Below, in pieces: positions 5,239 through 41,495 of a stretch of DNA of 64,000 bases. The DNA is taken from NCBI RefSeq assembly GCF_000799465.1, contig NZ_JUGU01000001.1, forward strand, positions 1,240,001 to 1,304,000, given 5' to 3'. Numbering within the stretch: the stretch's first letter is position 1; every line of letters begins with the position of its first letter. The stretch is from Psychroserpens sp. Hel_I_66. Lineage in GTDB: Bacteria > Bacteroidota > Bacteroidia > Flavobacteriales > Flavobacteriaceae. The translations under genes and the position numbers were made by a program. The notes under the pieces are model-generated. The model had not been told where the DNA came from. It ran no database searches and saw only the letters and a program-made list of their open reading frames with translations.

Positions 5239-5260
5239 TTCAAGATATTTATCAAAATTC

Positions 5261-23131: not shown

Positions 23132-25546
23132 ATGAAATACATCAAACTCCTCACAGCGTTTGTACTCACCATCGTTGTTTTTTATGTACTCAATACAAAA
23201 TTGGGTTCCATCCCTCCAATTGGTAAATTTTTGGATCCTGTTGGTGGTGTTTGGCAAAATGATCGAGACGATGTTATCGACGGAAATATCAACATCCAAG
23301 GACTATCTGCTCCAGTAACCATTTATTATGACGAACAATTGATTCCGCATATTTTTGCACAAAACGACCTTGATTTGTATAAAGCTCAAGGTTACATTAC
23401 AGCAAAACATCGGTTGTGGCAAATGGAATTTCAAACGCATGCAGCTGCAGGTCGTATTTCAGAAATTGTGGGAAGCGACGCACTCAACTACGATCGTACG
23501 GAACGTAGACGTGGCATGGGTTATGGCGCAGAGCAAGTCATTAAAAAAATGCAGGAAGATCCTGAAATGATCACATTACTTGAAGCCTATCGCGATGGTG
23601 TAAACAGTTTTATAGCTTCATTGAATGACAAAAGTTTGCCTGTAGAATATAAATTACTCGACTACAAACCCGAAGAATGGACCACAAAAAAAACAGCATT
23701 ATTATTAATGTATATGACCAAAATGCTCGCTGGTGGAGATGATGATTTAGAATATACCAATATGCTGCGCAAGTTTGGCAAAGACCGTTTTGACCTGCTA
23801 TTTCCAGACTTTTTTGATGTGAACGATCCTATTATTCCGAAGGAAACCGACTGGAGCTACATCAACGTCAAAAAAACCGAAACACCTCAAATTGAATTGC
23901 CTTTAGATACCATTTCGCAAACTATAGAAAAACCAAACCCAGATAATGGCAGTAACAACTGGGCAGTTTCGGGAGAAAAATCTGCGACCGGAAATGCTAT
24001 TTTAGCCAACGATCCTCATTTGGGATTGAACCTCCCTTCCATTTGGTTTGTAATGCAATTGAGCACTCCAGAGTATAATACAATGGGAGCCACATTGCCT
24101 GGTGCATTGGGCATAATTTCAGGGTTTAATGAGCACATTTCTTGGGGAGAAACCAATGCGACACGTGATGTTTTGGATTGGTATAAAATTGAATTTAAAG
24201 ACGATAAAAGAACGCAATATAAATATGGTGAAGGTTGGAGAGACACTACCGTTCGTGTTGAGGAAATTAAGGTTAATGGTGGTGAAACCGTTATAGATTC
24301 GGTAATTTACACCCATCATGGACCAGTAACTTACGACTCGAATTTTATGGGAAATAACGAAAAAGCAGGTTACGCTATGAGATGGATAGGTCACGAAGGT
24401 GGCAATAACCAGCGACCATTTTTAGATTTAAACCGCGCAAAAAATTATGACGATTACGTTAATGCACTCAAACAATATACTGCGCCTGCCCAAAATTTTG
24501 TATTTGCTTCTACTGAAGGTGATATCGCCATTTGGATACAAGGTCTGTTTCCTAACAAATGGGATGGTCAAGGGAAATTCTTAATGGATGGATCAAACCC
24601 CGAACACGATTGGCAAAGCTTTATTCCGCAGGAATTTAATGCACATGTCAAAAATCCAGATCGTGGTTTCGTAAGTTCTGCCAATCAGCATCCTGTTGAT
24701 GAAAGCTATCCTTTTTATGTATTTAATGACGGTTATGAAACGTATAGAAACCGCGTAATCAATAACTTTTTACAAAGTAATAATAATATTAGCGTTGACG
24801 ATTTTAAAGCACTTCATAATAACAATTACAATTTAAAAGCTGCGGAATTATTGCCCTATATTTTTGAAACGATGGATTCTAGTGATTTATCTTCGGAAGA
24901 AATAAAAATTTACAACCAAATCAAAGATTGGGATTTTAGCAACGATATTGAAAAATTAGGACCGAGCATTTGGTCAAAATGGTATTCTAAATTATATACT
25001 ATTACTTGGGATGAGTTTGAAAGCGAAGAAGAAGCACTCACCTCGCCATATACCTATCAAACCATTTATTTGATGAAAAACAATCCCGATAACGAGTTTA
25101 TGGATATTCTAGAAACTCCAGAACAGGAAACCGCTCAAGATTTGTTTCTCATTACATTTAAGGACACCGCAAAAGAACTTTTAGACTGGCAAACAGAAAA
25201 TGGTGAGTACAATTGGCAAGCCTACAAAGGCACTCGTGTTGGTCATTTACTACAAGCTTTACCAGCATTTTCGAGATTTGACTTGCCTATAGGTGGTGAT
25301 CGAAATATCGTAAATGCAACCTCTGCAACGCATGGTCCTTCTTGGAGAATGATTGTAGAAATGAGTTCACCACCTAAGGCTTTAGGGATTTATCCTGGCG
25401 GACAATCTGGAAATCCCGGGAGTGTCTATTATGATAATTTTATTGATGATTGGGCAATTGGCAAGTACCATGAATTACATTTTATGCAAGACAAAACCGT
25501 AACTAAAAAGATCATCGCAACACAAACCCTAACACCAACCAACTAG
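23132..25546 (+). CDS. penicillin acylase family protein
   Basis: An 804-residue Ntn hydrolase with an N-terminal membrane helix or signal (about residues 5-22). The precursor is expected to cleave itself before S274 in GSNNWAVSG, giving alpha and beta chains; the invariant SNNW start of the beta chain is intact. Other family marks are ITAKHRLWQMEFQTHAAAGR and LANDPHLGLNLPSIWF. It acts in the periplasm. Substrates in this family are amides such as beta-lactams or acyl-homoserine lactones, and which applies here cannot be told. It is followed after one base by a small membrane protein gene. Confidence 0.92.
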   Translation: MKYIKLLTAFVLTIVVFYVLNTKLGSIPPIGKFLDPVGGVWQNDRDDVIDGNINIQGLSAPVTIYYDEQLIPHIFAQNDLDLYKAQGYITAKHRLWQMEFQTHAAAGRISEIVGSDALNYDRTERRRGMGYGAEQVIKKMQEDPEMITLLEAYRDGVNSFIASLNDKSLPVEYKLLDYKPEEWTTKKTALLLMYMTKMLAGGDDDLEYTNMLRKFGKDRFDLLFPDFFDVNDPIIPKETDWSYINVKKTETPQIELPLDTISQTIEKPNPDNGSNNWAVSGEKSATGNAILANDPHLGLNLPSIWFVMQLSTPEYNTMGATLPGALGIISGFNEHISWGETNATRDVLDWYKIEFKDDKRTQYKYGEGWRDTTVRVEEIKVNGGETVIDSVIYTHHGPVTYDSNFMGNNEKAGYAMRWIGHEGGNNQRPFLDLNRAKNYDDYVNALKQYTAPAQNFVFASTEGDIAIWIQGLFPNKWDGQGKFLMDGSNPEHDWQSFIPQEFNAHVKNPDRGFVSSANQHPVDESYPFYVFNDGYETYRNRVINNFLQSNNNISVDDFKALHNNNYNLKAAELLPYIFETMDSSDLSSEEIKIYNQIKDWDFSNDIEKLGPSIWSKWYSKLYTITWDEFESEEEALTSPYTYQTIYLMKNNPDNEFMDILETPEQETAQDLFLITFKDTAKELLDWQTENGEYNWQAYKGTRVGHLLQALPAFSRFDLPIGGDRNIVNATSATHGPSWRMIVEMSSPPKALGIYPGGQSGNPGSVYYDNFIDDWAIGKYHELHFMQDKTVTKKIIATQTLTPTN

Positions 25547-25547
25547 C

Positions 25548-25901
25548 ATGAAGCAACATATCATCAACTTTGTAGTCACTATCATAATCGCGCTCATTTT
25601 ATCCCAGTTTTTACCTTGGTGGTCTGTGATGGTCGCAGGCTTTGTGTCTGCTCTTTTTTTTAGACTGAAACGTGCTGCAATATTTCTCGTGCCTTTTCTT
25701 GCCATCTTTTGTTTTTGGGCAGTTTATGCCTTTATTATGAGTAGCGGTAACGATTTTACATTGGCTAAAAAAATCGCTGTCCTCCTACCACTTGGCGGAA
25801 ACCCTTATCTCTTAATTTTAGTCACTGGATTAGTTGGTGGCATTTCTGCTGGTGTGGCTGGTATGTTTGGGAATGTTTTAGGTGTTTTGGTCAGGAAATA
25901 A
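25548..25901 (+). CDS. small four-helix membrane protein of unknown function
   Basis: A 117-residue, very hydrophobic protein with about four membrane segments and Gly-rich turns near the end (LVTGLVGGISAGVAGMFGNVLG). It starts one base after the penicillin acylase stop codon and is surely co-transcribed with it. It is the last gene on the left side of the cassette-like region. I do not recognise a family. Confidence 0.75.
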   Translation: MKQHIINFVVTIIIALILSQFLPWWSVMVAGFVSALFFRLKRAAIFLVPFLAIFCFWAVYAFIMSSGNDFTLAKKIAVLLPLGGNPYLLILVTGLVGGISAGVAGMFGNVLGVLVRK

Positions 25902-25970
25902 GTTACTACAATTTCATGCAGTTAAATATCACTACTAGAGGTTAAGGATTTACTATTTTAGCGTTATATT

Positions 25971-26738
25971 GTGGATATACGTAATTACTTATATACAAGT
26001 GTTACCCAACATTTGAGAAAGACCTTTGAACATAACAACAAACTTCTAAAAATCCTCTTAAGGGAGAATATTTATTTTGTTATTGGTTTGATAATTATAA
26101 CACCTATTTATTATTATCTGAAAAAAGGAGAGCAATTTGTTTTGGACTTTTTATTTGTCAAAATAATGTCTGTGATTTTCTTAATCTATAATCTACCGAA
26201 TTTCATTATTTATTTTAACTATTACAAAGAAAATAAGAATACGAAAATTAAGATTGACACAGAAAACAACAGCATCGAAATTGTCAAAAACGGAGTATCA
26301 AAACAATATGAAATAACGGAAATAAAATCTTCAATTTATCATTTAGGAATTTATTACAAAAATCGGATTGACAACGCAATGCGCTGGAAAATGATAAACT
26401 CTGACCTTGCATACTGGGATTTAGAATTTAATAATGGAGACAGATATTATATTTCAAACTTAATTGTGGATTTTCTGCACGACGAACCAATTGTAGAGAA
26501 TACAAAGTATAGATTTAGAATGTTTCAATACATTAACAAATCCGATTCTAAAGAAGCTTTAACTTTAAAACAAGAATTCGAAAGGCAAAAAGAAAAAAGT
26601 CTAACGAAAAAGTTTGTGGAAAAATTTGAATCAAAATCTGAAACGGAATTGAACGAAATTTTGACAAACAAATCAAATTATCAAAAAGAAGCGTTAAAAG
26701 CAGTTGAATTAATATTAAAAAATAAAAACGTTGGGTAA
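25971..26738 (+). CDS. cassette 1: two-helix membrane protein of unknown function
   Basis: A 255-residue protein with two membrane segments (about residues 33-50 and 60-85), a beta-rich PH-like part (95-185) and a charged helical C-terminus with the pattern SETELNEIL...YQKEALKAVELILK, seen in other Bacteroidota membrane proteins. The only in-frame starts are GTG at 25971 and TTG at 26013. The GTG lies outside the presumed cassette, which begins at GTTACCC (26001), so in another location the protein would start elsewhere, perhaps at the TTG. The stop codon lies inside the closing GGGTAAC of the cassette. The function is unknown. Confidence 0.72.
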   Translation: MDIRNYLYTSVTQHLRKTFEHNNKLLKILLRENIYFVIGLIIITPIYYYLKKGEQFVLDFLFVKIMSVIFLIYNLPNFIIYFNYYKENKNTKIKIDTENNSIEIVKNGVSKQYEITEIKSSIYHLGIYYKNRIDNAMRWKMINSDLAYWDLEFNNGDRYYISNLIVDFLHDEPIVENTKYRFRMFQYINKSDSKEALTLKQEFERQKEKSLTKKFVEKFESKSETELNEILTNKSNYQKEALKAVELILKNKNVG

Positions 26739-26864
26739 CACCGTATAAAAAAATTGCTAGTTTTAGCTAAACCAAAGTTAGTTGCTTGTTTTCTAGCTTC
26801 TGATTTTCCTTCGGAAAATCCTCGCACACAAACACGCAACTTTCCTTATACATAATCGTTAGGC
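26733..26864 (+). repeat. attC-like element 1
   Basis: This 132-bp element begins with R'' GGGTAAC and L'' GTATAA (26743) and ends with L' TTATAC and R' GTTAGGC (26858-26864). The L arms are exact complements. The centre holds TTTTCCTTCGGAAAATCC, which forms a short hairpin and includes the genome-wide octamer, and CACGCAAC near the right end. It belongs to subfamily A. Confidence 0.75.
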
Positions 26865-26875
26865 TTAATAAGAAA

Positions 26876-27430
26876 ATGACACTCTTCGAATCATTAGAAC
26901 ATATCAAGAAACGACCTAAAATGTACTTTCAGGAACAGCTAACTTTAGCTCATTTAGAAGCTTTCATTTATGGCTACGAAACTGCATCGGAATCCAATGA
27001 GGAAATTTTCCCAAATGGAATGAGTTTGGTGTATTTTGATACTTGGTTGACTGGAGCAATTGGAAAAACTTTGTCTGGAAATAGAGGATGGCGGAAAAGA
27101 ATTGAATACGTTACAAAAGATGAGAATCAAGCAGTAGAACTTTTCTTTGATTTGATATTTAAGTTTACTAATGGAAAAGTAAAAATAACCCAAAAAGAAA
27201 CCGAACCGAAATCGCTAAAATGGAGTCGAGGCGATGGAAATACAAAACTTGAAGATTTTCAAGAAATAGAAGAAATAATTGTACGTTTCGAATTGTTAGA
27301 ACACGAATTTTCTAAAACAAAATTTAAGATTGGATATAATGCGAATGATTTCAAAGTTTATGTTGAACCACAATTAAGCGGAAAAAATTTAATAACATTT
27401 AGATATACAGAAATTGAAGAAAATTACTAA
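26876..27430 (+). CDS. cassette 2: uncharacterised soluble protein
   Basis: A 184-residue cytoplasmic protein with no signal peptide or membrane segment. The N-terminus reads ESLEHIKKRPKMYF, like a widespread family of small uncharacterised proteins starting with an I-x-x-RP-x-MY motif and often found in toxin/immunity or accessory loci; that link is from memory and weak. The stop codon overlaps the extended end of the cassette (TAAGCCTAAC), which is the exact complement of its beginning (GTTAGGCTTA at 26858). I cannot assign a function. Confidence 0.7.
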   Translation: MTLFESLEHIKKRPKMYFQEQLTLAHLEAFIYGYETASESNEEIFPNGMSLVYFDTWLTGAIGKTLSGNRGWRKRIEYVTKDENQAVELFFDLIFKFTNGKVKITQKETEPKSLKWSRGDGNTKLEDFQEIEEIIVRFELLEHEFSKTKFKIGYNANDFKVYVEPQLSGKNLITFRYTEIEENY

Positions 27431-27564
27431 GCCTAACACCGTGTAAAAAACATTGCTTATTTTAGTTCAATCGTTTGGGCATTGTGTGTTTGCCAGCTTC
27501 CGATTTTCCTGCGGAAAATCCTCGCAAGCAAGCACGCAACGTCCCTTACACATTAAAGTTGGCA
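27431..27564 (+). repeat. attC-like element 2
   Basis: This 134-bp element has R'' GCCTAAC directly after the stop codon, L'' GTGTAA, L' TTACAC and R' GTTGGC (27558). The L arms differ from element 1 but still pair perfectly. The centre has TTTTCCTGCGGAAAATCCTCGC and the right part CACGCAAC. It is subfamily A and the best preserved copy. Confidence 0.78.
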
Positions 27565-27584
27565 TGAATTAAAAAAACAAACCC

Positions 27585-28466
27585 ATGAAAAACTCTCTAC
27601 TGTTTATTACATTAAGCTTTTTCTCTTTTTCATTTGGACAAGAATTTAGCATTGAATTGTTTTTTGAAGATTCTGCAGGGAATCAAGACAGCATTATTCT
27701 TGGTTATGATGATAATGCAACCGATGATATAGATAATTCATTTAATGAAACTAATATAATCACAATTCCTTACAATTCTGGCTTAGATGTTAGAATTAGC
27801 GATGAACTACAAGCTCGAACTACTTATCCCAATCCAATTCCAGCTACATATCATACTAAAACACAAATATTTCAAAAAAACTGCCCAACAAACTTTTCTA
27901 TCCAATCCATTGATATAGTAACTAATAATTGGCCAGTTTCAGTCACTTGGAATAATTTATTATTTGATGATGAATGTAGAAATGGATCAGTTTTCACAAG
28001 TATTAATCCAGGAGGATGGTGGGACACAGGAAGCCCAAGTGAATTTTCCAGTGGCTTTTACAGAGTCCAACTTTTTAATGAAAACAGTGTGACTTTTGAC
28101 GATAATACTGAATACCCAGAATATGCAAACAATGAAAATTATGCTTATTTAACTGATGACAATACTGTTGTATCTGTTTTTTGGTTCACTTTTGGTAATG
28201 AGTCGTTATTATTAAACGTTGAAGAATACAATTTACCCAAACTATCAATCTATCCAAATCCAACAGATAGTAAAGTAACATTTGATATTAATACAACTAG
28301 TCTGGAAATTGAACATGTTGAATTATTTGACATTACTGGAAAAGTTTCAAAAATTAAGCTTGACAATGACTCAATCAATTTGGAGAAATTTGAAAATGGA
28401 GTTTATTTCGTTCGCTTAATATTTAAAAATGGAAATACTTTATTGAAAAGGATTATTAAAAAATAA
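27585..28466 (+). CDS. cassette 3: secreted protein with T9SS C-terminal sorting domain
   Basis: A 293-residue protein with a signal peptide (residues 1-18, ending FSFGQ) and a type A T9SS sorting domain at about residues 222-293: the signature LSIYPNPTDSKVTFDI, ELFDITGK, then FENGVYFVRL and a KRIIKK end. It is therefore exported through the outer membrane by the gliding-linked type IX system and probably surface-attached. The passenger (residues 19-215) is beta-rich, has no recognisable catalytic motif, and contains three Cys. Its presence in a cassette shows that cargo can plug into the host secretion system. Confidence 0.85.
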   Translation: MKNSLLFITLSFFSFSFGQEFSIELFFEDSAGNQDSIILGYDDNATDDIDNSFNETNIITIPYNSGLDVRISDELQARTTYPNPIPATYHTKTQIFQKNCPTNFSIQSIDIVTNNWPVSVTWNNLLFDDECRNGSVFTSINPGGWWDTGSPSEFSSGFYRVQLFNENSVTFDDNTEYPEYANNENYAYLTDDNTVVSVFWFTFGNESLLLNVEEYNLPKLSIYPNPTDSKVTFDINTTSLEIEHVELFDITGKVSKIKLDNDSINLEKFENGVYFVRLIFKNGNTLLKRIIKK

Positions 28467-28469
28467 CGA

Positions 28470-28614
28470 CATGCTAACTTAAGACGTGAATAATTCATTG
28501 ATTTGGTCGTTGCCTATTTGGATAATTCCTTCGGAATTTTCTCGCGTTCGTTTTTGTTTATCAAATTAGTTGTTTAAACACGCAACTAACCATTCACAAA
28601 AACATTATAGCGGT
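28470..28614 (+). repeat. attC-like element 3
   Basis: About 145 bp. It starts CATGCTAAC, pairing 8 of 9 with the opening of its own cassette (GTTGGCATG). L'' is GTGAAT and L' is ATTCAC, an exact complement and different from elements 1 and 2. The right boundary reads ATTATAGCGG instead of GTT. The centre has the octamer CTTCGGAA, then TTTTTGTTTATCAAATTAGTTG, the mark of subfamily B. Confidence 0.68.
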
Positions 28615-28755
28615 AATGGAAAAAACATTGTGCTAAACAACAAACTATAAAATTGAACCTTACATTAGCGTACAACAAAAGTATATTTGACTTCAAAAGT
28701 TTTTCTGTTATTTAACAATTTTGCAGTGCAATTCTGCAATAAATAAAACAGAAAA

Positions 28756-29655
28756 ATGAAAATCACACTTACAGGTTCTATAGGTCACATTGGAAAACCA
28801 TTGACAAAAGAACTAATTAAAAAAGGACATTCGGTAACTGTCATAAGTAGTACTACCGAAAGAGCGAAAGAAATTGAAACCATTGGAGGAAAACCATTAA
28901 TCGGTTCAGTATTAAATGTTGATTTTCTTATTTCAGCATTTAAAGGTGCAGACGCAGTTTATTGTATGGTGCCACCTGCTAACTATTTTGACCAAAGCCT
29001 TGATTTGCCTAAATATTATAGCGATTTAGGTAATAATTATGCAGCAGCGATTAAAAAAACTGAAATTAAAAAAGTTGTAAATTTGAGTAGTATTGGTGCG
29101 CATTTGGAAAAAGGTAATGGCATTTTGAGCGGAACATACCAAGTGGAAAAATCACTCAACGAATTGCCACAAAATGTTGATATTACACATATTCGCCCAA
29201 CTGAATTTTACTATAATTTATTACCACAAGTTCATAGTGTTAAAGCCAATGGATTTATGGCATCCAACATTGGTGCTGACGTTGTAAATGCTTGGGTATC
29301 GCCAATTGACATAGCAAGTGCTGTTGCCAATGAATTAGTATCAAAATCTCAAGGCAGAAAAGTACGGTATGTTGCAAGTGAAGAAATAACCTATAATAAA
29401 TTAGTATCCATTCTCGGCAAAGCAATTGGAAAACCTGAGTTGCATTGGGTAACCATTACAAATGGACAAATGAAAAGCAGTTTAGTTTCAGTTGGAATGC
29501 AACCTGAATGTGCTGAAGGACTAATAGAAATGTATTCTGCGGTAAATAGTGGTTTACTTTACGAGCATTATAATTTACACAAACCAAAAAGTATGGGTAA
29601 AATAAAAGTTGAAGACTTTGCCAAAGATTTTGACCAAGCATATAACAAATTATAA
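28756..29655 (+). CDS. cassette 4: NmrA-like NAD(P)-binding protein
   Basis: A 299-residue atypical short-chain dehydrogenase of the NmrA/azoreductase-like type. The nucleotide-binding start is GSIGHIGKPLTKELIKKGH (a GxxGxxG form), followed by NLSSIGAHLE and the HIRPTEFYYN segment usual in this family. It may be a quinone/azo-dye reductase or an NADP-sensing regulator; the Tyr-Lys pair of classical SDR enzymes is not obvious. It lies 137 bp inside the cassette and is followed by an AraC-type gene in the same cassette, which may regulate it. Confidence 0.83.
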   Translation: MKITLTGSIGHIGKPLTKELIKKGHSVTVISSTTERAKEIETIGGKPLIGSVLNVDFLISAFKGADAVYCMVPPANYFDQSLDLPKYYSDLGNNYAAAIKKTEIKKVVNLSSIGAHLEKGNGILSGTYQVEKSLNELPQNVDITHIRPTEFYYNLLPQVHSVKANGFMASNIGADVVNAWVSPIDIASAVANELVSKSQGRKVRYVASEEITYNKLVSILGKAIGKPELHWVTITNGQMKSSLVSVGMQPECAEGLIEMYSAVNSGLLYEHYNLHKPKSMGKIKVEDFAKDFDQAYNKL

Positions 29656-29687
29656 AATCTTTAATGAAAGTAACATAACCATCTCAT

Positions 29688-30584
29688 ATCAAAACAATTA
29701 GCGAATATCATCGCTATCGTGGTTTGCCCAAACCTGAACATCCATTAATAAGTGTCATTAATTTGGACGAATTACCAATTCTTTCATCTAATGGTCAGTC
29801 AAATTGGGTTTTTGATTTTTATTCCATCGCCTTAAAACATAATTTTGATAGCGATATTAAATATACTTACGGTCAGCAAACCTATGATTTTGACGAAGGT
29901 GTGTTGTTTTTTATATCGCCAAATCAAGTTTTTTCAGTAAAAGCAAATGGTAATTACAAACTTTCGGGATGGATGCTACTTGTTCATCCCGATTTTTTAT
30001 GGCAGAGCCCATTATCTAAAACCATTAAAAAATACGAGTATTTTAGTTATTCGGTAAACGAGGCTTTACACCTTTCGCATAAGGAGGAGACGACAATTTT
30101 AAATATTATTCAAAATATAAAGCAAGAATATCACTCAAATATTGACCATTTTAGCCAACGTGTTATTTTAAGTCAGCTTGAGTTGTTGCTCAATTATGCC
30201 GATAGATTTTATAATAGACAATTCATAACAAGAAAAATAACTAATCATAGTATTTTAAACCAGTTAGAAGATTTACTGAACGATTATTTTAATCTAAATA
30301 GTTTAATCGAAAGTGGTTTACCTACGGTGTCAAATATTGCTAAGGAATTAAATGTTTCGCCAAATTATTTAAGTGGTTTGCTAAAATCTCTTACAGGACA
30401 AAGCACCCAACAACATATTCACGAGAAATTGATTGCAAAGGCAAAAGAAAAACTTTCGGTCACAAATTTATCAGTTAGTGAAATTGCTTATGAATTAGGT
30501 TTTGAACATTCGCAATCATTCAGCAATTTATTTAAGAAGAAGACGAATTTATCGCCTTTGGAATATAGAAAATCGTTTAATTGA
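29688..30584 (+). CDS. cassette 4: AraC family transcriptional regulator
   Basis: A regulator of about 298 residues. The C-terminal 100 residues carry two helix-turn-helix motifs (TVSNIAKELNVSPNYLSGLLKSLTG and SVSEIAYELGFEHSQSFSNLFKKKTNLSPLEYRKS), and the N-terminus is the effector-binding cupin. Family-typical sequence (ISEYHRYRGLPKPEHPLISVI) extends upstream of the first standard start, a TTG at 29724, back to an ATC at 29688 where relatives have ATG. I take 29688 as the homologous start; translation may instead begin at the TTG, giving 286 residues. It lies 32 bp after the NmrA-like gene. Confidence 0.78.
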   Translation: MKTISEYHRYRGLPKPEHPLISVINLDELPILSSNGQSNWVFDFYSIALKHNFDSDIKYTYGQQTYDFDEGVLFFISPNQVFSVKANGNYKLSGWMLLVHPDFLWQSPLSKTIKKYEYFSYSVNEALHLSHKEETTILNIIQNIKQEYHSNIDHFSQRVILSQLELLLNYADRFYNRQFITRKITNHSILNQLEDLLNDYFNLNSLIESGLPTVSNIAKELNVSPNYLSGLLKSLTGQSTQQHIHEKLIAKAKEKLSVTNLSVSEIAYELGFEHSQSFSNLFKKKTNLSPLEYRKSFN

Positions 30585-30604
30585 AAAGATAAATATTGCC
30601 GAAA

Positions 30605-30810
30605 CCACTACCGCTAAAAATGTATATGAAACATAGCTATTACAGGCTTTCCGAGAGGTTTTTGCTTCGTTATTAAGTTCGTCAAATTTTTATTTTTGTA
30701 TATTTAGAGATTAAAAGATAAATAGAAAAAATAAAAATTCGGCTCGTGTTTAATCCGAAACTATAGTGTCTTTTTACTCGTTACGTTTCATATACGGAGT
30801 CGTTGAAGCC
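30605..30810 (+). repeat. attC-like element 4, long divergent form
   Basis: This 206-bp element is longer than its neighbours. It begins CCACTACCGCTA, pairing 11 of 12 with the opening of cassette 4 (28608-28619). The inner arms are a perfect 11-bp pair, GTATATGAAAC (30622-30632) and GTTTCATATAC (30785-30795). It ends GTCGTTGAAGCC. The centre shares no clear sequence with subfamilies A or B, so it is a third type with the same plan. Confidence 0.68.
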
Positions 30811-30824
30811 AATTAAAAAGCCTG

Positions 30825-31727
30825 ATGATTACATTAAGTCTGTCACAAAATGAATTTAAAATTAATAATATTGAAATAACTTTCCCTATTGAAATTGAAG
30901 TCTTAAGAAAAACATTAGCCCTTGTAGGAAGAATTAATAAAAAAAAACATAATACAATTTATACTTGGGATGAATTAGGAATTTTAGCTTACTCAAAAAA
31001 TGGTAAATTGATAGAAAGTCTATCATTAGAACTGAAAAATGAAGATTTTGATTTTAGTGCTAAACAAATTTTTAAAGGAAATTTTCTTTTTGATAATGAA
31101 GAGATTTTAACTTATTATAAAGTAAATAAAGATAAAAGAGTCAAACTTTTTGAAGGTGATTCATCTGGAGCTCTAGTCTTAAATAATATCAGTGTTTGGT
31201 TTGACTCTAACCAAAATGATATTGAGGCTATTGAAATAAAGGCTTACGAAGGCTCTTCAATAAGAGGAATTCCAAAAGATAAGTATGTCATAAAGAAATT
31301 AGATGAAGAGGAAATTAAATTTGTTGATTTCGGATTTAAGTTATCAATTATACAGGAACTGATGTACAACAAAGAGTTGATTAAACCCAAATTTGATTTG
31401 TTTGAATTCGTCCTTTGGTATCCAAAAAGAGAAATTGACCTTGAAGAAGAAGGATATGAACCCATTGAAGAAATTACACATTATTTTAGGGACTTACCTA
31501 TTCCGAAAAGATTAGCATCTGAAATAACAGAAATTTATCAGGATGGTGGAAATGACATTTATATGCAACTTCTGCGATTTGGAGAAGGTTGGGAAGATTA
31601 TTGGGATATTGAATCAGCAAAAGATGCAGAACAATTTCCAAACTTGAAAAAAGCTGTTTTAAGTTATGCAAAGGAAAATGTACTTAATGAATTAAATGAT
31701 ATGGGAATTAAAGCAGAATGGATATAA
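30825..31727 (+). CDS. cassette 5: uncharacterised protein, possibly DUF6892-like at C-terminus
   Basis: A 300-residue cytoplasmic protein without signal or membrane segments. The N-terminal 150 residues alternate short beta strands (for example TWDELGILAYSKNGKLIESLSLEL). The C-terminal 70 residues (DIYMQLLRFGEGWEDYWDIESAKDAEQFPNL..., shown in part) recall uncharacterised DUF6892-type domains found in accessory genes of Bacteroidota; this is a recollection, not a search result. It sits alone in its cassette. Proteins with such layouts are often immunity or polymorphic-toxin accessory proteins, but no toxin is nearby. Confidence 0.72.
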   Translation: MITLSLSQNEFKINNIEITFPIEIEVLRKTLALVGRINKKKHNTIYTWDELGILAYSKNGKLIESLSLELKNEDFDFSAKQIFKGNFLFDNEEILTYYKVNKDKRVKLFEGDSSGALVLNNISVWFDSNQNDIEAIEIKAYEGSSIRGIPKDKYVIKKLDEEEIKFVDFGFKLSIIQELMYNKELIKPKFDLFEFVLWYPKREIDLEEEGYEPIEEITHYFRDLPIPKRLASEITEIYQDGGNDIYMQLLRFGEGWEDYWDIESAKDAEQFPNLKKAVLSYAKENVLNELNDMGIKAEWI

Positions 31728-31732
31728 AAACT

Positions 31733-31868
31733 GGCTACAACAGCGTGTAAAAAACATTGCTTATTTTAGTTGAAACGTTTTGGCATTACCCTGTTTTACA
31801 GCTTTTTATTATCCTGCGGAAAATCCTCGCAAGTGAACACGCAACTTGCCTTACACATTAATGTTGGC
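31733..31868 (+). repeat. attC-like element 5
   Basis: This 136-bp element of subfamily A has R'' GGCTACAAC, L'' GTGTAA, L' TTACAC and R' GTTGGC. Its closing half is almost identical to that of element 2. The frame of the next gene is open through this element from 31770, but that part is not coding. Confidence 0.75.
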
Positions 31869-31883
31869 AACAATTTAAGAAAA

Positions 31884-32909
31884 ATGAGAAAAATTATCCT
31901 AAAATTAGTTTTGGCACTTTTAATTGTGAGTTGTAAAAACGAAACTAAAAAAGAAAAATCTAATACTATTTTTGAAGTTGTGAATACTATTTCAGATAGC
32001 ATTGTTGTGGGAGAAATGACAATAAATAATGCTTTTAAACATCAAATTTTAGCTCATAAAGATTCAAGATTTGATAGTTTAACAATTTTTAATAAAGTAT
32101 ATCTGCCTAATAAAAACACCTTCGATAATTGCCTTGGAATGATTTTTGGTGATGAGAACGGAATGAAGTTTAAACCAGCTGGAATATACGATTGGAACAA
32201 AAACTTAATAATTGAAAACAAAGATCTAATAGAATCAAAATTATCCATTTTGGACTCGATAGATATTAATCAGTTATTTGAAAATCACTTAACTGCTGTA
32301 CAAGAAATGACTGGACAAAAAGGGAAAGGTAAATGGATGATTTATATGGGTCCAAAGGATTTTCAAATTTTTGGAGGTTGCGATAAAAACTCTATGATAT
32401 TAGATATGTTTGGAGAGGCTTGGAATACAAAATCAATAAATGACTTATTTGCTCACGAAATAGAGCATTTAATTTTTGAACCAATAGCACAAAAAGACCC
32501 AAATGGAAATACTGGATTAGGTATAACCTTAGATGAAGGATTAGCAGTTTATTTTACCTATGTATATCTTGATCAGGACTTGAAAGAAGCACTGTATGGT
32601 GATAGAAATATGCTTTTATTTAATCGTGAAAAAGAAATATTTGATGCTCTACAGCCATATTTATTTAAAACAATAGAAGAAGGATGTCCAATATTTAAAC
32701 ATTGTGGCAGAAGCGACGGTTGCCAACCAATTATTGATGATATTCCTGAAGATATGCAAGATGAATTATGCTATTTTTTAGGTTTCCGAATTATTGAAAA
32801 TTATGTCAAACTAAATGGAAAAGATTCTTGGAAAGACATATACAAAATCTCTCTAAAAGAATTTTATGAAAAAAGCGGATATAAAGAATTTATTGATTCT
32901 AAAAAATAA
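31884..32909 (+). CDS. cassette 6: lipoprotein with HExxH zinc-peptidase motif
   Basis: A 341-residue lipoprotein: signal peptide MRKIILKLVLALLIVSC with the lipidation Cys at residue 17. A zinc-binding motif HEIEH is at residues 191-195, and LDEGLAVYFTYVY about 25 residues later may supply the third ligand. The arrangement fits DUF2268-type predicted zinc proteases. The frame is open upstream to an ATG at 31770, but that stretch is the attC-like element, and only the ATG at 31884 gives a proper lipoprotein signal, so I use it. It is probably anchored in the periplasm or at the cell surface. The substrate is unknown. Confidence 0.8.
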   Translation: MRKIILKLVLALLIVSCKNETKKEKSNTIFEVVNTISDSIVVGEMTINNAFKHQILAHKDSRFDSLTIFNKVYLPNKNTFDNCLGMIFGDENGMKFKPAGIYDWNKNLIIENKDLIESKLSILDSIDINQLFENHLTAVQEMTGQKGKGKWMIYMGPKDFQIFGGCDKNSMILDMFGEAWNTKSINDLFAHEIEHLIFEPIAQKDPNGNTGLGITLDEGLAVYFTYVYLDQDLKEALYGDRNMLLFNREKEIFDALQPYLFKTIEEGCPIFKHCGRSDGCQPIIDDIPEDMQDELCYFLGFRIIENYVKLNGKDSWKDIYKISLKEFYEKSGYKEFIDSKK

Positions 32910-32914
32910 AAACC

Positions 32915-33040
32915 ATTATCAACACCGTATAATATTTATTGCTAGTTCTAGCCTACTTAGGAAATCCTAGCGGATTTTCTAATCGGTTTTTATTTGCTAA
33001 ATTAGTTGCTGAAACACAAAAATCAACATTGCCAACAATT
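32915..33040 (+). repeat. attC-like element 6, damaged right arm
   Basis: The left arm is normal (ATCAAC, ACC, GTATAA), but the expected TTATAC partner is missing near the right end, which reads CATTGCCAACAATT. The centre (GGTTTTTATTTGCTAAATTAGTTGCTGAAACAC in outline) places it in subfamily B. It is probably decayed or rearranged. Confidence 0.5.
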
Positions 33041-33075
33041 AAAAGAACCACAGTAAACATTATAAAATAGATATT

Positions 33076-33645
33076 ATGAAAAGCTTAATGATAACATTTT
33101 TGTTCTTGCTTGTTAGTATCTTCACTTTCGGACAGGACAATTCTGAAATTGAACTTAAAAGAATAACGTCAAAAATTGACTCAACCAAAACACCTGAACT
33201 AGTTCTAATTCAAGAATTCATGGTCAAGTCGCCAATTGATTCAGTTTGGAACGCATACACTACTAAAAAAGGTTATGAACGTTGGGCAGCACCATTAGCA
33301 GAAGTGGATTTAAAAGTTGGCGGATTTATTAAATCGAACTACAATAAAGATGGGAAGATAGGAGACAGTACCACAATTATTACTCACATTATAAATTACG
33401 TCCCTAAAACATTGATTACACTGCAAGCTGAAATTACTGATAACTTCCCTGAATTTATGAAAAAAGAGGCGAAAGACTTTTATAATGTTATCTATTTTGA
33501 AGAAATGAAAGATGGATATACGAGTGTTAAATCCTATGGAATTGGATATAAAAACAATTCTAAATACCTTTCGCTAATGAACTATTTCATTCCAGCAAAC
33601 GAAAAGATTTTAATGAATTTAATAACTCATTTAGAAAAGGAATAA
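33076..33645 (+). CDS. cassette 7: secreted SRPBCC (AHSA1/START-like) domain protein
   Basis: A 189-residue protein with a signal peptide (residues 1-19, ending FTFGQ) and a helix-grip SRPBCC domain. Visible features are the opening strand FMVKSPIDSVWNAYTTKKGYERW, the AAPLAEVDLKVGG hairpin and the long C-terminal helix. Such domains bind hydrophobic ligands in a deep pocket. Export is unusual for this superfamily, whose members are mostly cytoplasmic, but secreted forms are known in Bacteroidota. The ligand is unknown. Confidence 0.8.
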   Translation: MKSLMITFLFLLVSIFTFGQDNSEIELKRITSKIDSTKTPELVLIQEFMVKSPIDSVWNAYTTKKGYERWAAPLAEVDLKVGGFIKSNYNKDGKIGDSTTIITHIINYVPKTLITLQAEITDNFPEFMKKEAKDFYNVIYFEEMKDGYTSVKSYGIGYKNNSKYLSLMNYFIPANEKILMNLITHLEKE

Positions 33646-33656
33646 TACTAAAAACC

Positions 33657-33786
33657 GTTAGCTACACCGTATAAATTAATTGGTACTGCAAGCCACTTAC
33701 GAAACTCCTTGCGGATTATCTATTTGGTTCTTATTGGCTAAATTAAGTCCTTAACCGCACCACTCATCATACATCAAATGTTACCA
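33657..33786 (+). repeat. attC-like element 7
   Basis: About 130 bp of subfamily B. It begins GTTAGCTACACC with L'' GTATAA, and the right arm is TCATAC before GTTACC. The L arms pair 5 of 6. The right part CCGCACC corresponds to CACGCAAC of the better copies. Confidence 0.52.
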
Positions 33787-33796
33787 GTAATCTTGA

Positions 33797-34318
33797 CTAA
33801 TCACTAGCAAATGATGAATTTCTTTGAATTAAACTCGACTCAACAACCGTAGACTTAAAATCAATTTGACTTTTTGATTTAATCCTGTTAATTAAATTCG
33901 TAACAGCAATCTTTCCAATATTTTCAGCATGAAAATCCACGCTAGATATAGAAGGATAAAATTCTCTGGACAACTCCCCATCTCCACATCCTATAACTTT
34001 TAAATTCTCCGGAATTTCTATATTTAACTGCCTCGCTATTTTTATTGTCTTAGCAGCCATTAATTCATCCACCACAAAAATAGCGTCGATTTCAGATTTT
34101 ATCAAAATAGAGCGAATTGTGTCTTCGGCATCTTTAAGGTTTTCAATTTTGAAGATCAATGAGTCATTATAACTATTTGATTTTTTTAATGCTGAAATAT
34201 AACCTGCCTGCCTCTCTTGAATAACATTAAGAGAAAGGTGGGTAGTAAATAAGGCAATGCGTTTACAATTCTGTTTAATTAAACTATGAGTTGCGTTAAA
34301 TGCACCATTAAAATTATT
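33797..34318 (-). pseudogene. LacI family regulator, 5'-truncated remnant
   Basis: The leftward frame encodes 173 residues that match only the C-terminal half of a LacI/GalR regulator: NNFNGAFNATHSLIKQNCKRIALFT, then IQERQAGYISALK, the DAIFVVDELMA strand and FYPSISSVDFHAENIG. The helix-turn-helix and first sugar-binding lobe, about 165 residues, are absent: an in-frame TGA (34319-34321) and unrelated AT-rich DNA lie where they should be. An ATG at 34159 could start a 120-residue product, but that would have no DNA-binding domain. In Bacteroidota such regulators often control starch/maltose loci, and a GH13 amylase lies 390 bp away facing the other way. Confidence 0.78.
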
Positions 34319-34548
34319 TCAGTAGGTTTAGAGCTATATGAAAAGAGATCAAATTAAGTGACTGTTCTTACTCTAGAATTTTCTTATTTGATTTTTTTGT
34401 ATTCAATTAGAAATTAATAGAACTATTTAAAATAATTTCCTAAAAGAATCATTTTGTTGTACCTAAGTTGTACCCAAGCCATTTTTTGGAACAAATTGAC
34501 AATGTTTAAACTAAGTAAGCTTTTAAGTTCATTATAGAAAATATCGAA
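34319..34548. other. non-coding stretch between LacI remnant and attC-like element 8
   Basis: No open frame of note, RNA gene or clear repeat was found here. It contains two close copies of GTTGTACC (about 34455-34478) of unknown meaning. It is probably the scar of the deletion that removed the front of the LacI gene. Confidence 0.5.
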
Positions 34549-34682
34549 GGCACAACACTATATTTAAAAAATTACTATTTTTATCCTCAATCAATTTTAG
34601 TTTATTTGTTCGCTATTTTTTAATTTTCCGAAGGAAAATCCTCGCAAACCAACACACCACGTACGCTAAACATAAACGTGAT
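34549..34682 (+). repeat. attC-like element 8, degenerate
   Basis: About 134 bp with subfamily A features: GGCACAACAC at the left, TTTTCCGAAGGAAAATCCTCGC in the centre (containing the octamer) and ACACACCACGTACGC near the right end. The R and L arms no longer pair well, and the right boundary near AAACGTGA is uncertain. Confidence 0.5.
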
Positions 34683-34706
34683 ATACTATTTAAATAAAAA
34701 AACATA

Positions 34707-36563
34707 ATGAAACTCCTTTTTAATAAAAACATACTACTAAATTCTGCATTCTTATTTCTTCTTTCAATAGGATATAGTCAACCAAATAAAACAGTTAAAA
34801 ATGAGGAATTTGTGCCTCAATGGGCGAAGACCGTGGTATGGTATCAAATATTTCCGGAGCGGTTCAGGGATGGTGATACTGCTAATAATCCAACGATAAA
34901 CGACATAAAGGGAGCGGATCCTCAAGAACAACCTGCAGCATGGCAAATACATCCTTGGGGAAGTGATTGGTACGAACTACAGGCTTATGAAAAAACCAAC
35001 GGTGAGCCTGAACTTTGGAAACACATGTTGCGAAGACGTTATGGAGGCGACCTTCAAGGAGTCATAAACAAACTTGACTACCTGCAAGAATTGGGAGTGA
35101 CCGCCATCTATTTGAACCCAGTTTTTCAATCGCCATCACTTCATAAGTACGACAGTGAAAGTTACCATCACATTGATCCAAATTTCGGTCCTGATCCGGA
35201 AGGAGACAGAAAACTAATAGCTACCGAAAACCCCTTAGATGCTTCCACTTGGGTTTGGACAAGTGCGGATAATTTAGCTTTGAAATTGATAGAAAATGCA
35301 CATAATAGAGGAATGAAAATCATCTTTGATGGTGTATTCAATCATTTAGGCTATAACAGTTTTGCGTTTCAAGATGTATTGAAAAACCAACAAAACTCAC
35401 CTTATAAAGACTGGTTCATCATTAAATCCTGGAGAGATGAAGAGAAAGGCACGAAGTTCGATTACGAAGGATGGTTCGGAGTGAAATCACTACCTGAATT
35501 GAAGGAAGATAGCACAGGCATAGTCGAAGGTCCGAAACAGTATATTTTCAACGCGACCCAGAGATGGATGAATCCTAAAGGAAAAGGTACAGCATTCGGC
35601 ATTGATGGATGGAGGCTGGATGTTGCTTTTTGCATTGGTCACCCTTTTTGGAAACAGTGGAGAGCACATGTGAGATCCATAAATTCTGAAGCCTACATGA
35701 CAGCAGAGATTGTTGATACTCCAGATAAAGTACAACCTTACATGCAGGGCGATGAGTTTGATGGTGAAATGAATTATAATTTTGCTTTCGCTTCTGCTGA
35801 ATTCTTTTTCAATACAGATTCTACAAGCATCAAAGCAAGCGAATATGACACTAAATTAAATGAACTTCGAGAGCTCTATCCTTCAGGTGTTGCGTATGTG
35901 TCTCAAAATCTTTTTGGAAGTCATGATTCAAATAGAGTTGGTTCACATATTGTAAATAGCGATCTAGGCATCGGTAATTTCAGGAATTGGGGTACATATT
36001 TCAATTCTTCAACCGCTTCAAATAATCCCAACTATTCTACCAGAAAACCTGAGGAGGAAGACATCGAACTACAAAAATTATTTGCCATCATGCAGATGAC
36101 CTACGTAGGTGCGCCAATGATTTATTATGGTGATGAAGTTGGAATGTGGGGTGGCAATGATCCGGATAGCAGAAAACCCATGATTTGGGATGATATTGCC
36201 TATGAAGATGAAGTATACAGCGTTGATGGTTCTAAACATGCTCCAGATAAAGTGGCAGTGAATAATGATTTATTTCAGCATTATAAAAAGCTGATTACTA
36301 TAAGAAATAACCATACTGCCTTACAAATGGGTACCTATAAAACTTTATTTACAGATGATGAAAAAGGTGTCTTAATTTTTGAACGCAACTACAATAATGA
36401 AAATTTAATTGTCGTAATTAATAACGGTAATAGTGAGTATGTTGTTGATGTCGCCGAATTAAGTAAAGAATGTTTTACAGACTTAATTAGTGAGAAAGTA
36501 TTTGAGAACAATAAAATAATAGTTGCTAAAAAATGGGGACTTGTACTAAAAAAATGTATATGA
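34707..36563 (+). CDS. secreted GH13 alpha-amylase family glycoside hydrolase
   Basis: A 618-residue enzyme with a signal peptide (residues 1-25, ending GYSQ). The GH13 catalytic triad is visible: nucleophile D305 in GIDGWRLDVA, acid/base E334 in TAEIVDTP, and D407 in FGSHDSNR. The region-I motif DGVFNHLG and the opening WYQIFPERFRDGD point to the neopullulanase/cyclomaltodextrinase subgroup, like SusA of starch utilisation loci. A C-terminal beta domain follows from about residue 540. It is predicted to cleave alpha-1,4-glucans in the periplasm. No SusC/SusD pair lies nearby, so the locus appears to be reduced. Confidence 0.92.
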   Translation: MKLLFNKNILLNSAFLFLLSIGYSQPNKTVKNEEFVPQWAKTVVWYQIFPERFRDGDTANNPTINDIKGADPQEQPAAWQIHPWGSDWYELQAYEKTNGEPELWKHMLRRRYGGDLQGVINKLDYLQELGVTAIYLNPVFQSPSLHKYDSESYHHIDPNFGPDPEGDRKLIATENPLDASTWVWTSADNLALKLIENAHNRGMKIIFDGVFNHLGYNSFAFQDVLKNQQNSPYKDWFIIKSWRDEEKGTKFDYEGWFGVKSLPELKEDSTGIVEGPKQYIFNATQRWMNPKGKGTAFGIDGWRLDVAFCIGHPFWKQWRAHVRSINSEAYMTAEIVDTPDKVQPYMQGDEFDGEMNYNFAFASAEFFFNTDSTSIKASEYDTKLNELRELYPSGVAYVSQNLFGSHDSNRVGSHIVNSDLGIGNFRNWGTYFNSSTASNNPNYSTRKPEEEDIELQKLFAIMQMTYVGAPMIYYGDEVGMWGGNDPDSRKPMIWDDIAYEDEVYSVDGSKHAPDKVAVNNDLFQHYKKLITIRNNHTALQMGTYKTLFTDDEKGVLIFERNYNNENLIVVINNGNSEYVVDVAELSKECFTDLISEKVFENNKIIVAKKWGLVLKKCI

Positions 36564-36716
36564 TATCTCAAAATATAAATAGGTATTTAGTATAATTTTT
36601 TATTAGAAAAACAAAAAACCTATTAATTGATATTTAAAAAATTAATTTAACTTGTTACCAACTATACGTATATGATATTTAGAGAATACCCATTCTTTAA
36701 AAATAAATTTTAGGAC

Positions 36717-38096
36717 ATGAAAACTTCTAATTTAAAATGGTTACTACTTGTATTGTTAGCTTTACCTATATTCGAATCTTGTAGTACAGACGACAATCAA
36801 GTAAACACTTATATTAATGAAACAGTTGTAACTGATGAAACGACACAACTTATCGTAGAGTGGAATGAATTATGGTTAGAACTAGATCGCTATACCTATG
36901 GAATGCGACCAAATGCCACAGCTAGATCATTGGCATATATAAATCTTGCTGCTTATGAGACTGTAGTTGACGATATGGTAGATTTCACTTCAAACGCTTC
37001 TAGATTACAAAATTTAACCATTGACAATTCTCAGCGTGCAAATACTATTGATTTAAATATAGCCTTAAATACCTGTTATGCTGTAGTTATGGATTACTTT
37101 ATGTATAACATTCCCATTGAAATGAATAATGAAATAGACCAATTCAAAGTCACAAAAGAGAATGTTTTGTTTCAAAATGTAACTAATCAAGTATTTATAG
37201 ATTCTCGTCAATGGGGAAACTATGTTGCAGAACAAGTCATAGCGTACAGTCAAACCGACCTTCAAGCAGAATCACAAATACTAGATCCACAACCTTTATC
37301 TTATGAGCCTCCAATAGGAGCAGGTTACTGGACCTATAGTGCAGATCAGGAAAGAGCTTTGTTTCCTTATTGGCAATCTGTTCGCACATTTGTAATATCA
37401 TCTGATGATACTTCAACCATAGCTCCAATGGATTACAATGAAGATTCTAATAGCGATTATTTTGCACAGATGAATGAAGTTTATATTACAAACAATGCAG
37501 CTAAATTAGAAAACAATGAAGATTTATGGGTCGCCGAGTATTGGTCAGATGATGTTGAAGGTCTAATGATGAGTCCACCAGGAAGACAAATTTCAATAGC
37601 TAAACAATTAATTGTTCAAAATGATTTCAACCATGAAACTTCCTTGGTACTATTGCTTAAATTAGGCTTCGCACTTAATGATGCAGCAGTGTCAACTTGG
37701 GCAGATAAGTACAATTATATGGTAATGAGACCTCATGTTTATATACAAGAATTTATTGATCCCGAATTTGAAACCAATCTCTACAAATTTATTAATTGGC
37801 CAAATCCGTCATTTCCAGGTTACCCTTCTGGTCATTCCTGCTTTGCTTCGGCAGCAGGAGGTATTTTTATTGATACTTTTGGGAATACGATAGATTTTAC
37901 TGAACGCGCCCATGAAGGAAGAACAGAATTTAGTAGTGCGCCAAGACATTTTAACTCTATAAGTGAAATGGTTGAAGAAGCTGCATTTTCTAGAATACCA
38001 TTGGGAGTACATATGAGAATAGATTGTACAGAGGGAATGCGACTGGGTTATGAGATTTCAGAAGCTGTTAATGACTTTGATTTATCAGTAAATTAA
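36717..38096 (+). CDS. vanadium-dependent haloperoxidase/PAP2-like lipoprotein
   Basis: A 459-residue lipoprotein: signal ending LPIFESC with lipidation Cys22. The second half holds the vanadate/phosphate-binding motifs of vanadium haloperoxidases: MRPHVY (Arg), PSGHS at residues 370-374 with H373, and SRIPLGVHMRID with the axial H432. The helical first half (residues 40-200) is typical of bacterial VCPO-like proteins. It may oxidise halides or act as a phosphatase; the sequence alone cannot decide. No attC-like element separates it from the amylase gene. Confidence 0.86.
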   Translation: MKTSNLKWLLLVLLALPIFESCSTDDNQVNTYINETVVTDETTQLIVEWNELWLELDRYTYGMRPNATARSLAYINLAAYETVVDDMVDFTSNASRLQNLTIDNSQRANTIDLNIALNTCYAVVMDYFMYNIPIEMNNEIDQFKVTKENVLFQNVTNQVFIDSRQWGNYVAEQVIAYSQTDLQAESQILDPQPLSYEPPIGAGYWTYSADQERALFPYWQSVRTFVISSDDTSTIAPMDYNEDSNSDYFAQMNEVYITNNAAKLENNEDLWVAEYWSDDVEGLMMSPPGRQISIAKQLIVQNDFNHETSLVLLLKLGFALNDAAVSTWADKYNYMVMRPHVYIQEFIDPEFETNLYKFINWPNPSFPGYPSGHSCFASAAGGIFIDTFGNTIDFTERAHEGRTEFSSAPRHFNSISEMVEEAAFSRIPLGVHMRIDCTEGMRLGYEISEAVNDFDLSVN

Positions 38097-38154
38097 AATT
38101 ATTCAAAAAAAAACAATTCCCTTTTTTATCTTATAAAGGACAAAATTGGACTTG

Positions 38155-38285
38155 TAAGCTAAGACATTTATAATTCATTACTAGTACTCGCCTACTCATA
38201 ATGATTGTTGCAGATTTTCTATTTTATTGTATTTACTAAGTTAATTGATTAAACCCGCAACTCATCCTATATATTAATGTTTGCC
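38155..38285 (+). repeat. attC-like element 9, degenerate
   Basis: About 131 bp of subfamily B: GCTAAGAC at the left, ATTTACTAAGTTAATTGATTAAACC in outline in the right half, CCGCAAC, TATATATTAATG and a GTTTGCC right end at 38279. The arms pair only partly. Confidence 0.5.
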
Positions 38286-38355
38286 AAAGGCTAAAATTAG
38301 ATTTTTCAAGAAATAGTAAAAAAAAGAACCCGTAATTATTTATGAATTAAATACA

Positions 38356-39411: not shown

Positions 39412-39454
39412 GTAAGCATTCTGAATAAAATATTCAAAACTTTTGTCAATAATA

Positions 39455-39575
39455 GTTTTACACTATTGCTTGTCCTCACCTGCTTAAAAAAAAACCTCAC
39501 GTAATTTCTATTCAGTTTTTATTTTCTAAATTACGTGCTTAACAAAAAAAATTACACAAAAAAACGGTGTAAAAC
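39455..39575 (+). repeat. attC-like element 10 with two nested perfect stems
   Basis: The outer arms GTTTTACAC (39455-39463) and GTGTAAAAC (39567-39575) are exact complements. Inside lies a second exact pair, CACGTAATTT (39498-39507) and AAATTACGTG (39528-39537), with a 20-bp loop. The right arm ends ACGGTGTAAAACATTG, like the left end of element 2. It is subfamily B in its centre. Confidence 0.58.
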
Positions 39576-39586
39576 ATTGAAAAAAA

Positions 39587-40021: not shown

Positions 40022-40026
40022 GTATG

Positions 40027-40166
40027 TTGTAGAACACAATATTTAAATAATGCTAGTTTCATATAAATTAATGATAATTAATTGTTAGTTGGCATTTAAT
40101 TTTTCTTCGGAAAATTCTCGCTCACAAACATAAATATCCTTAAATTTTTAAAACACTCTGTAACAA
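40027..40166 (+). repeat. attC-like element 11, strongly degenerate
   Basis: GTAGAACAC at the left, TTTTTCTTCGGAAAATTCTCGC in the centre with the octamer, and CTGTAAC at the right recall subfamily A. The arms do not pair clearly. It marks the probable right limit of the array. Confidence 0.4.
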
Positions 40167-40209
40167 TAATTTTGAACAATCGTCTAAAGCAAAACTAAAT
40201 TTAAATGAT

Positions 40210-41340: not shown

Positions 41341-41468
41341 AAATTTTAACTCACAATATTATTTAAGAAAGTCCACTTAGCTCATGCTCTTTAATAACTG
41401 ATAATGATAGCGATCGGGCAATAATTTTTTCAAAACAACATAAAACCAAATCTTAACACCATTTCAAC

Positions 41469-41476: not shown

Positions 41477-41495
41477 CAACAAACTGCAAAGTCAT

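Follow-up and report, generated by a model that had tools for sequence, protein, structure and literature searches.

In the chromosome of Psychroserpens sp. Hel_I_66, a genome of 3.84 Mb in a single contig, we analysed a stretch of 64,000 nucleotides (1240001-1304000; hereafter the window, with coordinates counted from its first letter). A reading of 25001-35000 places seven consecutive units at 26001-33782, all on the plus strand and each closed by a related hairpin element. The initial annotation of this DNA had read them as integron-like gene cassettes, a proposal that evidence from the whole genome and from other genera supports and strengthens: the stretch is very probably a decayed cassette array of an integron-like system widespread in Bacteroidota.

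Each unit starts and ends with one of a pair of 14-nt arms, whose agreement is given here as matches out of 10 positions, and the closing attC-like sites were scored with a covariance model, R1, described below. Cassette 1 (26001-26857; arms 10/10) holds an open reading frame (ORF) ending at 26738 that belongs to no Pfam family, and is closed by a site at 26726-26860 (100.4 bits for 26737-26860). Cassette 2 (26858-27557; 10/10) likewise carries an ORF without a Pfam family (26876-27430), and its closing site (27424-27560; 91.4 bits for 27435-27560) shows 98% identity over 127 nt with a site at genome position 1795026. Cassette 3 (27558-28605; 6/10, degenerate) encodes a protein with a Por secretion C-terminal sorting domain (27585-28466) and ends in a site with an altered right GTT (28465-28606; 82.3 bits for 28481-28606). 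Two genes, NmrA-like (28756-29655) and for an AraC-type regulator (29724-30584), make up cassette 4 (28606-30801; 10/10), whose long-type site, at approximately 30605-30804, is recognizable by its arms and an inverted repeat and is not matched by the short-site model R1. Cassette 5 (30802-31862; 8/10) contains an ORF with DUF6892 and DUF7738 (30825-31727) and a site at 31728-31865 (78.2 bits for 31739-31865). The last two cassettes, one with a DUF2268 protease-like ORF reaching 32909 (31863-33027; 6/10) and the other with an AHSA1-like ORF at 33076-33645 (33028-33779; 7/10), are closed by degenerate sites at 32910-33030 (53.4 bits for 32921-33030) and 33652-33782 (49.5 bits for 33663-33782), respectively. 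Beyond the coordinates of the initial annotation, an isolated site follows on the same strand at 38163-38281 (50.4 bits; E 1.7e-6 in a genome scan).

The claim that unit starts are complementary to their own ends stands, with arms of 14 nt and with units 3, 6 and 7 degenerate. Scored over 10 positions per unit, with position 11 omitted and unit ends chosen by hand, the true pairing of the seven units sums to 57 of 70. Among all 5040 possible pairings of starts with ends (mean 29.6, runner-up 56) it alone attains this value, which was reached in none of 20,000 trials with ends drawn randomly within 200 nt. Units 4 and 7 have one side that is no longer GTT/AAC. Position 11 is A at the start of all seven units and C at the end of six, and this regular ‘mismatch’ is a rule. 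The array is real and partly decayed.

Used as a DNA query, a single site finds relatives in several clusters of the genome. A motif search returned 255 candidates, many plainly due to chance; pattern and length served to select 51 short ones, of which one was dropped. Alignment A2 and the model R1, which superseded the motif search, were built on the 50 that remained, all clean sites from this genome, with the window supplying three. The stems of A2 covary, with 89 two-sided cells versus 26 in shuffles and 98.9% of cells paired (21-42% in slid versions). Covariation in the L stem is not independent evidence, because the 50 sites were chosen with a complementary L stem; independent inner pairs with both sides changed are found at columns 15/115, 16/114 and 17/113 in 14-15 of 47 distinct rows, and at 20/109 in 8 of 47. 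At E<=0.01, the R1 matches in the genome number 92. Of these, 31 lie on the minus strand at 109-179 kb and 30 on the plus strand at 1767-1797 kb; smaller groups are found at 1800-1811 kb (4, minus) and 2615-2632 kb (9), the window has 7, and 11 are scattered. Two large arrays elsewhere, both headed by Xer-like tyrosine recombinases, account for 61 of the 92. The attC-like sites come in lengths of about 125 or 190 nt; the longest ORF lies on the array strand in 80 of 88 units of this genome, with a median unit of about 850 nt. Arrays running in one direction and consisting of mostly single-gene cassettes follow the integron plan, as do attC-type sites with a covarying stem and, judging by the identity switches described below, a GTT crossover. 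R1 also gives 45-48-nt matches at three fetched loci (L114 15140-15187, L117 18759-18803 and L118 5524-5568) that keep the outer parts of the site with almost no terminal loop.

Across genomes, arm complementarity was measured on 214 neighbouring site pairs in fetched stretches, 192 of which (10 genomes) have GTT at both ends. In these 192 cassettes, own arms agree at 6.07 of 7 positions, compared with 2.70 when mispaired and 3.08 in the best of 10,000 permutations; the end complementarity proposed in the initial annotation thus survives permutation both here and in the window, and cassette start and end are complementary as in integrons. Where agreement reaches 6 or 7 positions (160 cassettes), position 11 is A at the start in 160 and C at the end in 145, and the match rate is 0.78 at position 10 and 0.92, 0.94 and 0.88 at positions 12-14 (expected 0.68, 0.44, 0.53). 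Pairing stops sharply past position 14, with position 15 at chance level, and on the bottom strand the A/C of position 11 becomes a T.G wobble pair. The attC site of IntI integrons has a 7-nt R box, whereas the arms here span 14 nt and include this fixed A/C position.

Hairpin elements that follow stop codons, with the longest ORFs mostly on the same strand, could also be transcription terminators or other RNA structures, in which case the units would merely look like cassettes. However, the elements fold better on the strand opposite to the transcript. When a cassette’s own arms are joined to its site, as in the circular form, 141 of 143 sites are more stable on the bottom strand (mean folding energy -28.2 kcal/mol for the bottom and -23.5 for the top strand; 5.4 versus 1.1 G.T pairs), as are 40 of 41 when only differing cores are counted, while control windows within the same cassettes show the opposite bias (bottom favoured in 28 of 143). 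Of the 143 bottom folds, 120 pair position 11, which no top fold does, and at least 78 contain a 3-nt bulge just inside AAC/GTT. Such a bias does not fit selection on a transcript, because that selection would favour the other strand. The terminator reading also leaves the complementarity with the far unit start and the identity switches at GTT unexplained, and Rfam yields a single match in the window, a Flavo-1 RNA at 49040-49103 (49.8 bits). Given the strand bias with its controls and the switches within C/GTT, we set this reading aside as next to impossible. The single-stranded bottom strand of attC is the proposed substrate of recombination.

Copies of cassettes are found at different places within and between three genomes (G226, G000 and G198). 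For 22 pairs sharing the downstream side only, identity rises from 0.41 at offset -2 to 1.0 at -1 and beyond (0.95 at two later offsets); for 78 pairs sharing the upstream side only, it stays at 1.0 for offsets 0 to +2 and does not exceed 0.6 from +3 to +8, the pairs being non-independent (25 and 81 distinct junctions). Identity therefore switches within C/GTT, and does so between genera as well. Moreover, a 4.3-kb multi-cassette block common to two G226 arrays has both ends within 25 nt of junctions. The copied cassettes show what reads as a record of past movement.

The initial annotation had noted the lack of a tyrosine recombinase and suggested that a different or distant one moves the units. 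The lack applies to the 64-kb window only, because large arrays elsewhere in the genome are headed by Xer-like tyrosine recombinases, and the suggestion fits the three integrase genes found there. A 377-aa recombinase (1759.9-1761.1 kb, plus) lies ahead of the array at about 1766-1797 kb, and two copies of a shorter integrase (140.1 and 180.3 kb, minus) lie ahead of minus-strand arrays. The shorter two (L003, L004) are nearly identical. In both, the N-terminal domain can be read upstream of one in-frame stop, which is at a different position in each copy; they thus look interrupted, while their 377-aa relative is open. The same kind of integrase heads arrays on its own strand in the chosen genomes G226, G198 (twice), G118, G134, G029, G304 and G088. 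Scanning with ten such integrases brought in 80 loci from other genomes, where R1 detects 41 sites in 12 loci, all 41 downstream of the integrase and on its strand; the non-Bacteroidota loci among the 80, a stand-in control for other phyla, gave no R1 match. Strict arm pairs, which need no model, define 49 units in 23 of 50 Bacteroidota loci (classed by title, one being titled only ‘bacterium’), and all 49 are downstream and co-oriented, with none in the other three quadrants, in 23 other loci or in 7 IntI loci. Hosts include Algibacter, Seonamhaeicola, Winogradskyella, Flavobacterium, Algoriphagus, Arundinibacter, Rufibacter, Alkalitalea and a Bacteroidales metagenome-assembled genome. We infer that the array-head integrase is the recombinase that moves the cassettes.

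Behind 21 of these integrases, a start arm fitting the first attC was sought; 18 score 10 or 11 of 11, with the next-best place at 4-7. For 14 of these 18, the distance from the integrase stop to the recovered arm is 36-155 bp; for the other 4 it is 300-1435 bp. In 8 of 14 cases, no more than 7 of 300 shuffles fold as well as the 42 nt before the arm; three (G029, L127, L159) are in between. By position, a putative attI site adjoins the integrase gene, as the integron plan has it; unlike in IntI integrons, this site is often palindromic.

Host chromosomal XerC/XerD might move the units, as in integrative mobile elements exploiting Xer (IMEX) or dif modules. XerC- and XerD-like genes are present in the genome besides the array-head integrases, and passages of PMC7790495 describe CTX phage integrating as a hairpin via Xer. 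Yet the units stand in direct order with one closing hairpin each, and a different recombinase occupies the array head, in most recovered cases at the short distance from the first GTT given above. In a quick tree, 20 Xer (XerC/XerD) rows form one clade (support 100) that contains no array-associated integrase. Unlike Xer/XerA recombinases, the array-associated integrases head cassette arrays and carry an extra N-terminal domain. We consider an origin through XerC/XerD very unlikely.

All 23 array-associated integrases have the catalytic RKHRHY, and their K-to-H spacing is 64-65 residues in 23 of 23, compared with 105-106 in 7 of 7 IntI; they lack the IntI insert, an additional domain (I2). 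The same tree unites the 7 IntI in one clade (support 100) without array-associated rows, and places the array-associated integrases in a 64-row group (support 88); plasmid IntI1 (L207), a short record with a K-H spacing of 70 by motif count, was left out and the 7 IntI used instead. A canonical IntI, acquired from outside or since lost, could still have built the arrays with the Xer-like genes as bystanders, since the site plan of R and L stems, GTT and cassettes is that of integrons, and clusters of attC sites lacking integron-integrases (CALIN) are described as common in sections of PMC8618304. However, the genome has no TIGR02249 match over cut-off, and the strict arm units of the Bacteroidota integrase loci are missing from the IntI loci, leaving this explanation highly improbable.

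Some 80 residues N-terminal to the core are common to the integrases of about 375-400 aa (alignment A8). Pfam HARP matches one of 10 members at E 7.8e-4 and two others at 15.6 and 14.4 bits (cut-off 25), and among PDB sequences the A8 profile best matches the HARP domain of SMARCAL1 (4o66; E 0.026, a weak match, next 0.25). HARP is absent among the matches listed by VIA-align, a list filled by the catalytic domain. On this sub-threshold evidence the domain looks HARP-like, by sequence only and, unlike in SMARCAL1, fused to a recombinase. HARP binds forked DNA, and a comparable role in the cassette system is plausible. Three integrases (L171, L173, L175) reach about 580-680 aa, with extra sequence ahead of the core and perhaps more than one N-terminal domain.

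These observations suggest how a complete platform would be built and would work. It would comprise a Xer/XerA-like tyrosine recombinase, an attI-like site and a cassette array. The integrase, with a HARP-like N-terminal domain in most examples, would be transcribed towards the array; the attI-like site, short and often palindromic, would usually lie 36-155 bp past the integrase stop codon; and the mostly single-gene cassettes would each end in an attC-like site some 125 or 190 nt long. A cassette circle would present the bottom strand of attC as a hairpin, whose base is the 14-nt arm pair with the T.G wobble at position 11 and AAC/GTT at its inner end, followed inwards by the 3-nt bulge and then the L stem. 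The integrase would recombine this hairpin within C/GTT with attI or another attC, and the cassette would therefore start with one arm and end with the other.

Like IntI integrons, the system has cassettes in direct order with one hairpin site each, a GTT crossover, complementary cassette ends, a site adjoining the integrase gene and a bottom strand favoured in predicted folding (in silico here). Unlike in IntI integrons, the integrase has no IntI insert, falls outside the clade of the 7 IntI compared and, when of the HARP-like type, is transcribed towards the array. The relevant parts of PMC2426708, PMC9668308 and PMC9024848 make IntI, with its special domain, the defining feature of integrons. 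Judged by its organisation and likely mechanism, what we describe is apparently an integron system. The lack of the defining integrase domain places it outside the IntI class, and on present comparisons it is a new, I2-less, Xer-type integron class of Bacteroidota. Bacteroidota are named among the phyla with integrons in a section of PMC8618304, and the IntegronFinder 2.0 paper, in the portion consulted, places a complete integron in Bacteroidetes proper only in Salinibacter (PMC9024848). We found no published description of the system in literature that was covered without bioRxiv and most subscription papers, so that its unpublished status is unproven. Relatives of the array-head integrases may already be filed, unlinked to arrays, because the insert is called ‘not fully conserved’ in an integron-like subgroup in part of PMC8138268. 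According to excerpts of a 2020 eLife paper (PMC7790495), I2 and single-strand recombination are confined to integron integrases and intermediates are lacking. We lean towards the view that a second integron class exists, in which a Xer-like, I2-less integrase acts on bottom-strand attC hairpins read by the HARP-like domain, the wobble and the bulge, single-strand capture having arisen twice or preceded I2. In such a class, the T.G wobble and 3-nt bulge would replace I2 and its extrahelical bases as recognition features, and the HARP-like domain would act as a fork- or junction-binding hairpin reader. An I2-less platform with bottom-strand-biased sites makes the need for I2 directly testable.

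Several observations weigh against these interpretations, for which all evidence is comparative. Among the site pairs, 22 of 214 have no GTT at one end and 32 of the other 192 fail to keep arms. Only 12 of the 80 integrase loci contain R1 sites, and 27 of the 50 Bacteroidota loci have no strict unit, many of them with little downstream sequence. In G103, no site lies near the integrase among the matches listed, and the nearest integrase in both G182 and G046 belongs to a different, divergent kind. The HARP match stays under the Pfam cut-off wherever bits are shown, and 3 of 14 attI-like stretches (G000-377, L140, L175) give no hairpin signal. In the window, the hairpin of the attI-like stretch does not stand out from shuffles, of which 123 in 300 fold as low, and the reading frame of a supposed integrase relic is broken. 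The second integrase kind (L086 in G182, L098 in G046) measures about 282-284 aa, has no N-terminal domain and is divergent to arrays of similar sites, which is the layout of classical integrons.

That relic bears on how the window array arose. Between the upstream gene, which ends at 25901, and unit 1, which starts at 26001, lie a possible remnant of an integrase gene 3' end (25910-25961, plus), proposed from an alignment with the integrase tail of Winogradskyella ursingii L159, and an imperfectly palindromic, attI-like stretch (25972-26000, plus) resembling those that precede the first cassette GTT behind integrases. Aligned with the L159 tail and attI-like site, 25910-25998 scores 64, against 49 for the best of 1000 mononucleotide shuffles; of 10 integrase tails compared with the window stretch, 3 beat all shuffles. 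The array may thus keep a relic integrase tail and attI. Alternatively, it never had an integrase of its own, and one encoded elsewhere in the genome inserted the cassettes at a chromosomal site resembling attI. The three other integrase genes and the broken frame of the relic favour this account, whereas the alignment of the 90-nt stretch before unit 1, beyond all 1000 shuffles, speaks against it, and we regard it as conceivable if somewhat doubtful. Probably, the array had its own integrase, of which deletion has left a short tail, and the units of the array decayed. Like CALIN, the window array has sites and no integrase; unlike CALIN, it belongs to another integrase class and may retain the tail and attI-like relic. 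We hold it highly probable, from the sequences compared, that the window preserves, in decayed form, what is left of a chromosomal integron belonging to a class that occurs across Bacteroidota.

Congeners provide a further view of the locus. Of 21 with the left anchor, 20 loci were fetched, using anchors at 25.5 and 43.85 kb. Both anchors are present in 16 of the 20, only 20-75 bp apart in 3, and other sites of the same kind (R1) occur in 4 of 20. None of the 20 shows conserved order of the window units, which would have spoken against mobile cassettes, and no exact empty site for these units was found among them; the precise gain or loss at GTT envisaged in the initial annotation is seen for duplicated cassettes elsewhere, not for the window units. 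In G412 (L234), a different unit with a 10/11 arm lies behind a palindrome at the same place as the window array. The interval between the anchors is a site of gene turnover. From 25905 to 43840, a region that includes an alpha-amylase region, length and content vary among congeners.

The system is broadly distributed. At least 64 of 395 Bacteroidota genomes, a spread sample, have one or more R1 matches at 1e-4, a lower bound because at most 8 candidates were scored per genome and the model was trained on one genome. Two Flavobacteriaceae genomes carry 92 and 127 sites, and it seems that Bacteroidota hold a large stock of mobile genes that has so far escaped notice. With one site as query, none of 50,697 phage records matched, and 2 of 72,556 plasmid records did (E 1e-5), both of Tenacibaculum finnmarkense; in these plasmids (CP116296.1, CP116298.1) the sites are 75-80% identical to one attC-like site. 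Cassette proteins, of which 81 of 82 listed were scanned, match 54 Pfam families; of 25 shown, 2 are matched by two members and the others by one. Cargo families include MFS, aldo/keto reductase, AIPR, ParE, methyltransferases and reverse transcriptase. The first cassette behind the 377-aa integrase (L045, about 1430-6220) extends over about 5.2 kb and, read by eye, apparently contains genes for a DNA methyltransferase and an ATPase-type protein as well as a regulator-like gene.

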